Assembly: GCF_014284195.1 (NCBI RefSeq)
Contig: NZ_JACOGC010000007.1
Coordinates: 1-64,000 of the forward strand
DNA from: Cognatundibacterium griseum
GTDB taxonomy: Bacteria; Pseudomonadota; Gammaproteobacteria; Burkholderiales; Burkholderiaceae_D
Length of the DNA: 64,000 nucleotides
Reading direction: 5' to 3'
Shown: piece by piece, positions 5,029-26,656 of the stretch
Numbering within the stretch: position 1 is the stretch's first letter
How the letters are laid out: each line of letters starts with the position of its first letter
Program-made: the position numbers and the translations under genes
Notes under the pieces: model-generated
Seen by the model: the letters and a program-made list of their open reading frames with translations, nothing else
Told to the model about the DNA's origin: nothing
Databases searched by the model: none

Positions 5029-6753
5029 ATGCAGACAGATACGCCATTACTTGAAGTCAGTGATCTGCGGGTTTCATTTCGCATCAGTAAAAAAGACAGC
5101 ACAGAGACCGTCAAGGGCATTTCTTTTTCCATTCCGCGTAATTGCACCGTCGCCCTGGTCGGGGAATCCGGCAGCGGAAAATCTGTGAGTTCACTGGCTG
5201 TCATGGGCTTATTGCCGCCGGATACCTCACAGATTGGCAATGGCAGCCGGATTCTGTTTGAAGGATGCAACCTGCTGGAGCTGTCCACCGAACAACGCCG
5301 TCAGCTGTGCGGTAAAGATATTTCGATGATATTTCAGGAACCAATGAGTTCCCTGAACCCGGTATTTACTGTCGGTTTTCAGATTGCGGAAGTCTTGCAA
5401 CTGCACATGGGCATGAATGCAAAGCAGGCGCGTAAACGGGCCATTGCCCTGCTGGAGGAAGTCGGCATTCCAGAACCGGAACGCAAAATAGATGCCTACC
5501 CCAGCCAGATGTCTGGCGGACAGCAGCAGCGCGTCATGATTGCGATGGCGATTGCCTGCGAACCGAAGCTGCTGATTGCCGATGAACCGACAACGGCACT
5601 CGACGTCACGATACAAAAGCAGATTATCGAACTGATTCACAAGTTACGCATCAAGCATCAGATGTCGGTGCTGTTTATTACGCATGATCTGGCACTGGTC
5701 GGTGAAATCGCCGATCAGGTCATCGTGATGCGGCATGGGGAAATCCGCGAAACCGGCAGCACACAGCAGATTTTCAATCACCCGGCAGACAGTTATACGC
5801 AAGCCTTGCTGCATTGCCGCCCTTCGCTCGACAAACGCCCGTGGCGATTGCCGGTCATTGCGGATTTCATTGAAAACGACCATACCCTGCCGGAACAGCG
5901 GGAGCGGCAGCGCGGATTGCATGGCGGTGAAGACATTGTGCTGGATGTGCGCGGACTGAGTAAGAGTTTCTTCACCCGGGAAGGCTTATTCGGTAAAAAA
6001 GAATTTAAAGCCGTCGATGATGTTTCATTCCGGCTCGCGCGCGGCAAGACGCTGGGAGTGGTCGGTGAATCCGGCTCAGGTAAAACCACGGTCGGACTGA
6101 CTCTGATGCGGCTGCACCGCGCCAGCAGCGGTCAGGTAATGTTCGACGGAAAAAATATCCTCGCCATGCCGGACAAGGATTTTCTCCCTTATAAGCGGCG
6201 TATCCAGATCATTTTTCAGAATCCCTATGCTTCACTGAATCCCCGTTTCACGATCGGCCAGATTCTGATGGAGCCGATGCATATCCACCAGATTGGCAAC
6301 AATGATGGCCAGCGCGCTGCCTTAGCGGTTCAATTGCTGGATAAAGTCGGGCTGCCGGCAGCCGCATTTCATCGCTATCCTCACGAGTTTTCCGGTGGCC
6401 AGCGCCAGCGCATTGCCATCGCCCGCTGCCTGACCATGAAACCGGAAGTGCTGATCTGTGACGAATCTGTGTCGGCGCTGGATGTTTCGGTACAGGCACA
6501 AGTGCTCAACCTACTGCAGGATCTGCAGGAAGAATTCGGACTGTCTTACATCTTCATTTCCCATGATCTGGCCGTCGTGAAATACATCGCCGATCAGGTC
6601 ATGGTCATGAACCGGGGGAAAGTCGTGGAGATGGCCAATGCCGACGATCTGTACCATCAGCCGCAGCATGCCTATACCAGAACGCTGCTCAGTGCGATTC
6701 CGCGTGGACTGGCTTCCACCGCCAGCATGACCTCGTCGGTAGCATCAATATGA
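5029..6753 (+). CDS. Fused double ABC ATPase for peptide import (DppD-DppF fusion)
   Basis: Cytoplasmic ATP-hydrolysing subunit that carries both nucleotide-binding domains in one 574-residue chain, as in YejF or GsiA. Domain 1 (about 8-255) has Walker A GESGSGKS, signature SGGQQQR and Walker B LLIADEP. Domain 2 (about 305-560) has Walker [10 protein letters not shown], signature SGGQRQR and a Walker B reading [11 protein letters not shown]. Each domain ends with the oligopeptide-type C-terminal extension (DSYTQALL and HAYTRTLL). Last gene of the operon, 9 nt after the second permease. A palindromic repeat starts 5 nt after its stop codon. Confidence 0.95.
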
Positions 6754-6758
6754 ATGCA

Positions 6759-6831
6759 GGGGGAGTATCTGAAAAATCAGGCCGATTGTCGCCGTCAAAA
6801 AAGAGGCTAAAAATATACTCCCCCGAGTATA
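6759..6831. repeat. Inverted GGGGGAGTAT element, copy 1
   Basis: GGGGGAGTAT (6759-6768) is the reverse complement of ATACTCCCCC (6815-6824), with 46 nt between. The second arm is also half of a local palindrome, TATACTC-CCCC-GAGTATA (6814-6831). The same parts recur at 26184-26263 in a different order. Position directly behind the ABC operon suggests an operator or RNA structure; function unknown. Confidence 0.7.
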
Positions 6832-25281: not shown

Positions 25282-26178
25282 TCAGACCTGTTCGGTGACC
25301 GTCATGACTTCGGCAAATAACTCTGGCTCAAACACCATCCGCTGCGCATGCGTCAGCAACAGAAAGTGCCTGCCTGTGCAGCGGGAAAACAAACTCATAC
25401 CGACCTGCTCGGCAACCTGATGTCCCATTTCTGTCGTACCGGAACGCGACAACAGAATAGGAATACCCATTTGCGCTCCTTTGATCACCATTTCGGAAGT
25501 CAGTCGGCCCGTCGTGTAAAAAATTTTATCGCCGCCCTCCATGCCATCCAACCACATCTTACCGGCGATGGCATCGACCGCATTATGGCGACCGACATCT
25601 TCAACGAAATACAGTAAATCGCCATGCTGAGAAAACAAGGCGCAGCCATGCACGGAGCCTGCTTTTTTATAGACGGATTGCTGGGTGCGGATGGTGTCGA
25701 TGATCCGGTAAAGTGCCGACTGCCGGATACGTGCCTGATCCGGCAACACGATCTGGTCAACTTCATCCATCAATCCGCCAAATACCGTGCCCTGGCCACA
25801 ACCCGTGGTCACGACCCGCTTGGCCGTGCGCTCTTCAATATCCACGACGCCGTTTCGGGTCGTGACTGCCGCTGCGCCGACCTCCCAGTCCACCTGCACC
25901 GCTGCAATCTGGTGAATATCCCTGACCAGACGCTGATTGCGCAGATAGCCAAGCACCAGTGCTTCAGGATTACACCCCATGCTCATCAGCGTGACCAGCT
26001 CACGCTTATCCAGATACACGGTCAATGGTCTTTCTGCTGGAATCGAAATCAGGCTGGAACGACCGCGTTCATCCGTCACCTGCACTTCTCTGGTGAATGC
26101 GATGGTCGACTGGCTCAGTTCCGGCAAAGGCAAGGTATCAGGCATGAGGAAAATATCTGCCAGCAGGCATAAAGACAT
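25282..26178 (-). CDS. fdhD: Formate dehydrogenase accessory sulfurtransferase FdhD
   Basis: Passes sulfur from IscS to the molybdenum cofactor so that formate dehydrogenase becomes active. The 298-residue product has the family blocks RPLTVYLDKRELVTLMS, RVVTTGCGQGT with Cys127, SVHGCALF, VEDVGRHNAVDAI and TTGRLTSEMVIK. The E. coli protein has a CxxC here; this one has only the first Cys. From ATG 26178 the ribosome binding site would be GGGGGAG, 9 nt upstream, inside a palindrome. A second ATG at 26145 begins MPDTLPLPE. It ends the FDH gene series. Confidence 0.95.
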   Translation of the reverse strand: MSLCLLADIFLMPDTLPLPELSQSTIAFTREVQVTDERGRSSLISIPAERPLTVYLDKRELVTLMSMGCNPEALVLGYLRNQRLVRDIHQIAAVQVDWEVGAAAVTTRNGVVDIEERTAKRVVTTGCGQGTVFGGLMDEVDQIVLPDQARIRQSALYRIIDTIRTQQSVYKKAGSVHGCALFSQHGDLLYFVEDVGRHNAVDAIAGKMWLDGMEGGDKIFYTTGRLTSEMVIKGAQMGIPILLSRSGTTEMGHQVAEQVGMSLFSRCTGRHFLLLTHAQRMVFEPELFAEVMTVTEQV

Positions 26179-26183
26179 TCAAA

Positions 26184-26263
26184 TATACTCCCCCGGAGTA
26201 TACTAAAAGCCCTTTTATTCTCAACGGCCTCAGGAGCAAAAAGGCGAAAATCCGGGGGAGTAT
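26184..26263. repeat. Inverted GGGGGAGTAT element, copy 2, in the fdhD leader
   Basis: TATACTCC-CCC-GGAGTATA (26184-26202) is an 8-bp palindrome whose minus-strand right half holds the probable fdhD ribosome binding site GGGGGAG. A further arm GGGGGAGTAT (26254-26263) is complementary to ATACTCCCCC (26185-26194) at a distance of 59 nt. Two mutually exclusive RNA pairings are possible. The same arms occur at 6759-6831. Confidence 0.7.
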
Positions 26264-26305: not shown

Positions 26306-26656
26306 TTACTTTTTCTGAGCAACCGATGGGGGCACGGACACGGACGTCACTGGGGCTGGCGCTGCAGCGGCTTCCGGCGGAACATGGGGGCCGGGATCAG
26401 CACAGGCTGGGGTCGTCACCGTGGCAGGTTGACTGTTTTTTTCTTTATGATAATGGGTTGCGACACGATCCTGCGCTTTACACAGCTGGAATGCCGCCAC
26501 CTTATCCGACCAGGCAGCTTTTGCCTTCGCTTCCTCCGCCTTTGCCTTGGCTTCGGGTGAAGGCTCCGGCAATTTTGCCTGTACGGCACCGCTGCCCACC
26601 AGCAGCAGCGTTGCGGCAGCGCGCATCAGATGCGCCATGTTTTGAGGTACATTCAT
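26306..26656 (-). CDS. Small exported Ala/Pro/Lys-rich protein of the formate dehydrogenase cluster
   Basis: A 116-residue protein starting at ATG 26656, with GGAG 6 nt upstream. A signal peptide (about 1-27, core RAAATLLLVGSGAVQA) is followed by a charged Lys/Glu/Ala-rich helix and a segment with two Cys (QLCKAQDRVATHYH and TPACADPGP). The tail is Pro/Ala/Val-rich. I do not recognise a family with a known function. It starts 16 nt after the gamma subunit stop, so it belongs to the same transcript; a structural or cofactor role in the periplasm is possible. Confidence 0.7.
   Translation of the reverse strand: MNVPQNMAHLMRAAATLLLVGSGAVQAKLPEPSPEAKAKAEEAKAKAAWSDKVAAFQLCKAQDRVATHYHKEKNSQPATVTTPACADPGPHVPPEAAAAPAPVTSVSVPPSVAQKK

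Follow-up and report, generated by a model that had tools for sequence, protein, structure and literature searches.

The hairpin that lies ahead of the fdhD gene in the window (the whole stretch of DNA that was analysed, 64,000 nucleotides) is one copy of an element found about 91 times in the genome under study (G000), that of an Undibacterium close to U. oligocarboniphilum. The element combines two boxes whose centres are 62-63 bp apart, one a complete palindrome (ATACT-N6/7-AGTAT) and the other a half box, and its identification as a dispersed DNA-level element, and not as an RNA switch, is well supported. We consider it likely that this element derives from an operator, that its most likely ligand is an orphan protein of the CsoR/RcnR family, here called X; it may have an architectural or boundary role rather than that of a switch for fdhD. 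No description of the element was found in the literature searched on the motif, on genome-wide binding by the CsoR family or on Undibacterium repeats.

The features of the fdhD locus, and those of a further element in the window, are the following:

25282-26145, minus strand, fdhD, beginning at the conserved ATG 26145 (FdhD/NarQ family, PF02634, 257 bits)
26185-26201, minus strand, proximal box, the full palindrome ATACT-CCGGGGG-AGTAT with an N7 core, recognised by pattern and by arm conservation
26202-26247, minus strand, spacer containing a T/A tract and, in its centre, a weak dyad (CC near 26227-26226, GGG at 26212-26210)
26248-26263, minus strand, distal box in the same 16-bp frame, of which only the left half is kept (ATACTCCCCC, 26263-26254)
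26306-26656, minus strand, upstream neighbour, an ORF of 116 aa without family match
6753-6768, plus strand, distal box of the second element, with the right half kept (GGGGGAGTAT, 6759-6768)
6815-6830, plus strand, proximal box of the second element, ATACT-CCCCCG-AGTAT

The centres of the distal and proximal boxes are 62.5 bp apart in the fdhD element, whose spacer has helically phased G/C and A/T according to the family profile, and 62 bp apart in the second one. The latter (6753-6830), which belongs to the same family, has tandem genes on either side. The 116-aa ORF, for which the Pfam and NCBIfam searches gave zero matches, sits between formate dehydrogenase genes and fdhD, and relatives show similar sequence upstream of fdhD.

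The original prediction had described a hairpin, TATACTCC-GGG-GGAGTATA, which was found at 26202-26184 of the minus strand, as well as an upstream segment capable of pairing with one of its arms over 10 bases. The pairing was even more extensive, since all 13 of 13 bp were formed between minus-strand positions 26263-26251 (ATACTCCCCCGGA) and 26197-26185 (TCCGGGGGAGTAT), leaving a loop of 53 nt. When the leader RNA was folded, as had been proposed, its energy was -51.6 kcal/mol (z -3.19) and the minimum free energy structure included this long-range pairing. The further claim that both pairings hide the Shine-Dalgarno sequence of fdhD is doubtful, because it depends on ATG 26178, a start without conservation. 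Comparison of the leader sequences by eye showed that this codon is GTG in the record of U. oligocarboniphilum (L091) and ATC in that of U. rivi (L092), and that there is a 1-nt length change ahead of the conserved fdhD start (MPD...), which corresponds to ATG 26145. Since this alternative start is conserved and ATG 26178 is not, the hairpin is probably located outside the initiation region. U. oligocarboniphilum, U. rivi and U. aquatile all retain the fdhD element; none was seen in the printed leaders of Massilia, Noviherbaspirillum and other Oxalobacteraceae loci.

Genome-wide, the palindrome with at most two mismatches had 63 matches and its reversed control only 1, and the half box ATACTCCCCC had 93 matches versus 1 for the control, numbers well above those expected by chance. 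Because the palindrome and the half box both recur throughout the genome, the feature is not peculiar to fdhD. The idea of a DNA site, which had been offered beside that of an RNA switch, is supported in the sense that the fdhD copy belongs to a two-box element spread over the genome, but not as an operator dedicated to fdhD, and the switch itself is not supported. From 86 stretches around the sites, 83 two-box elements were extracted by script, and further pattern hits brought the number to 91. The second box was present in every one of the 83 analysed elements and the distance between centres was 61.5-64 bp in 82 of them; in the element of the X-gene leader it is 73 bp, about one helical turn longer.

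The whole element spans about 80 bp, its boxes being separated by an A/T tract with a weak central CC-N12-GG dyad. The spacer is near-constant in length and lineage-specific in sequence, and its G/C content is periodic, with maxima at about 10.5-11 and 21 bp, as judged against a lenient null obtained by permutation (shuffling). The distal box retains either the left or the right half, as expected of a double-stranded site. A conserved stem in the spacer was rejected, because no complementary covariation was found in 82 copies (none of 2637 column pairs reached z 4). The G-tracts of the two boxes were mostly on opposite strands (52:27 in G000 and 78:36 in G032), which the model proposed below does not require, and in genome G144 the core of many elements was not a G-tract. 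The central dyad of the spacer also differed by lineage (TGTCCA..TGGACA in G144, GCGCA..TGCGC in G248); such lineage-specific dyads, seen in the elements of G144, G248 and G032, look as though they were bound by a second protein whose specificity changes, or as though the copies had been homogenised.

All 83 elements were intergenic with respect to the genes called by our own gene caller. Between tandem genes their orientation was random (26 along transcription and 27 against it); they were weakly enriched between convergent genes (21 of 83, p 0.02) and weakly depleted between divergent ones (only 9, p 0.045). The elements of G000 were spaced more evenly than at random (CV 0.68 vs 0.98; P 0.0006 with fixed ends), as were those of G032 (P 0.005). 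No even spacing was seen in the part of the L-type list that was covered for G144, and this genome showed no pattern in replichore orientation or in regional density.

In order to evaluate constraint, G000 was compared at 19 orthologous loci with G247, which has the fdhD element of the U. oligocarboniphilum record. Divergence was 1.1% and 1.5% in the two proximal arms, 6.9% in the distal box and 21% in the core, while the spacer differed by 11-21% and the near flanks by 13-15%, with a bias favouring the arms in that 16 of the 19 loci came from lists demanding perfect arms. The element was present at all of the other three loci, in one of them with a mutated arm. A comparison independent of the choice of perfect arms was provided by the L-type elements, of which 30 out of 37 had a reciprocal-best partner between the species, at a spacer divergence of 17.5%, whereas the survival of about one partner was expected at the spacer rate. 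There were no empty sites at the 19 aligned orthologous loci.

Fifteen of 44 Undibacterium genomes carry between 17 and 183 elements, and all 15 encode X. Of the 18 without X, 17 had zero elements and one (G188) had a single element-like site (L191), which may be either a remnant or a copy gained by horizontal transfer. None of the 368 other genomes sampled in the class had the L-type pattern. In the X tree the expanded genomes formed one clade, with modest support (84/80), and genomes with X outside this clade had 0-3 elements each; G263, which falls inside, had only 2. As the expansion is confined to a single clade, its co-occurrence with X counts as one evolutionary event and is weaker than it looks. 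Moreover, the 0-3 elements outside the clade and the two of G263 imply that X alone is not the cause of the expansion.

One orthologous element was common to seven sister genomes with X, in a syntenic stretch of 3 kb, where it is flanked by NagB-II-like and sugar-binding-protein genes and a nagA-like gene adjoins. G000 has an element at this same place of the nag (N-acetylglucosamine) locus (L027), and the nag-locus element is likely to be the founder.

The genome contains two PF02583 genes, that of X (G000:C10:59451-59762) and that of an FrmR-like protein (L109). X scored 57.8 bits with PF02583, above the curated cut-off of 22.8, and remained below all the NCBIfam cut-offs (RicR 33.5/175, RcnR 20.9/138 and FrmR 23.6/133 bits). 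According to alignments, it does not have the usual metal ligands: one Cys is kept, there is no second Cys and Ser replaces the His of solved relatives. Of the 25 X leaders from Undibacterium that were readable by script, 21 had the motif ATACT-N6/7-AGTAT upstream of the gene (it was in none of those of G144, G262, G258 and G269, and that of G264 was not read). Most of the palindrome-bearing Undibacterium orthologs also had a half box, GATACTCCC, within the first codons of X, and some X orthologs of other genera have an upstream palindrome too. Judged from these sequences, X is apparently autoregulated.

An inverted TACT/AGTA dyad around a G-tract defines the RcnR/CsoR-type operator (PMC7055735, PMC3902906), that of RcnR being TACT-G6-N-AGTA, with two copies per intergenic region (PMC7055735), and the box described here has such a dyad. 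Together, the co-occurrence with X and the palindrome in the X promoter point to this protein as the likely ligand of the boxes. The FrmR-like protein was rejected as the ligand, because its promoter sequence differs and because G188 has such a protein without any expansion.

The stable fold of the fdhD leader (z -3.19) and the preference for pairing between the distal and proximal boxes, already given for G000 and G032, agree with a cis-regulatory hairpin governing fdhD translation. We regard such an RNA switch as very improbable, given that the orientation of the elements to transcription is random (26:27), that the spacer has no covarying stem, that the pairing is dispensable, being missing in 27 of 79 copies, that there were zero Rfam matches near fdhD and that the hidden ribosome-binding site would serve an unconserved start codon. 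The elements might instead be promoter operators of a conventional X regulon, with fdhD as one regulated gene among about 90; the RcnR-type operator, the apparent autoregulation of X, the retention of the element ahead of fdhD in the three Undibacterium species and the position of the likely founder between nag-locus genes all agree with this. However, their excess between convergent genes, their scarcity between divergent ones and their lack of a fixed orientation to genes speak against a regulon, which seems unlikely to us.

A mobile repeat of the MITE or REP-like kind, dispersed by a transposase that acts in trans and recognises the boxes as ends, with X as incidental, would account for some 90 copies of one asymmetric build in a single clade, each lineage with its own spacer consensus, and for the one copy, probably the founder, that the sister clade has; any reading needs some form of copying. 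Like the repetitive extragenic palindromes (REP/BIME; PMC3733652), the elements are many small palindromic intergenic copies in one lineage, but their two boxes keep a constant helical distance, with conserved arms and a free core, and GTAG/CGTC tags belong to the REP/BIME family (PMC3733652). The number of elements was uncorrelated with Y1 transposase genes, which were present in 18 of 18 genomes tested, with and without elements, and a Y1/RAYT transposase link was therefore rejected. No empty sites were seen at the 19 aligned loci, nor was any target-site duplication clearly found at a constant length or offset (5-mers and 7-mers were in weak excess), which may also speak against mobility. 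The far better conservation of the box arms than of the flanks after insertion and the mutual avoidance of copies in two genomes argue against it as well, so that a mobile repeat appears rather improbable, if somewhat less so than a regulon.

In the operator-derived element that we favour, the boxes, at a distance of six helical turns, would lie on the same face of the helix, and X would bind both of them and form a compact complex by wrapping the phased spacer, in the way that DNA wrapping has been reported for RcnR (Iwig and Chivers 2009, as cited in PMC3902906). The operator of the nag locus would have been the starting point, from which copies reached about 90 intergenic positions in the lineage, where selection on the boxes and on their spacing would keep them in place, and each element may then function as a local boundary formed by nucleoprotein or as a chromosome-architectural site. 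The wrapping and the architectural role are plausible, with chances that we would place just short of even. The resemblance to the RcnR system comprises the box (ATACT-G6/7-AGTAT), its presence in two copies, a probable PF02583 protein and a plausible wrapping geometry. In contrast to that system, the copies number about 90 per genome rather than being limited to a single intergenic region, X has no usual metal ligands, the spacing is fixed at 62-63 bp and one of the boxes is degenerate.

The architectural role that we favour has its counterparts in the matS/MatP, SBS/SlmA and Noc sites, which are dispersed chromosomal site systems. Like them, the element is a specific site repeated tens of times and probably has one cognate DNA-binding protein, but it differs in its two boxes and in the protein family, and neither regional depletion nor replichore orientation was seen in G144. 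In its most specific form the proposal is tentative: X may have lost metal sensing and may now serve as a chromosome organiser in one Undibacterium clade, wrapping about 20-180 paired sites that came from a single nag operator.

If this were true, it would show how a local repressor operator can give rise to nucleoprotein sites all over a genome. The likely starting state, a single nag site, persists in sister species, so that the origin of such a site system would be directly testable, as would its effect on chromosome structure and transcription.
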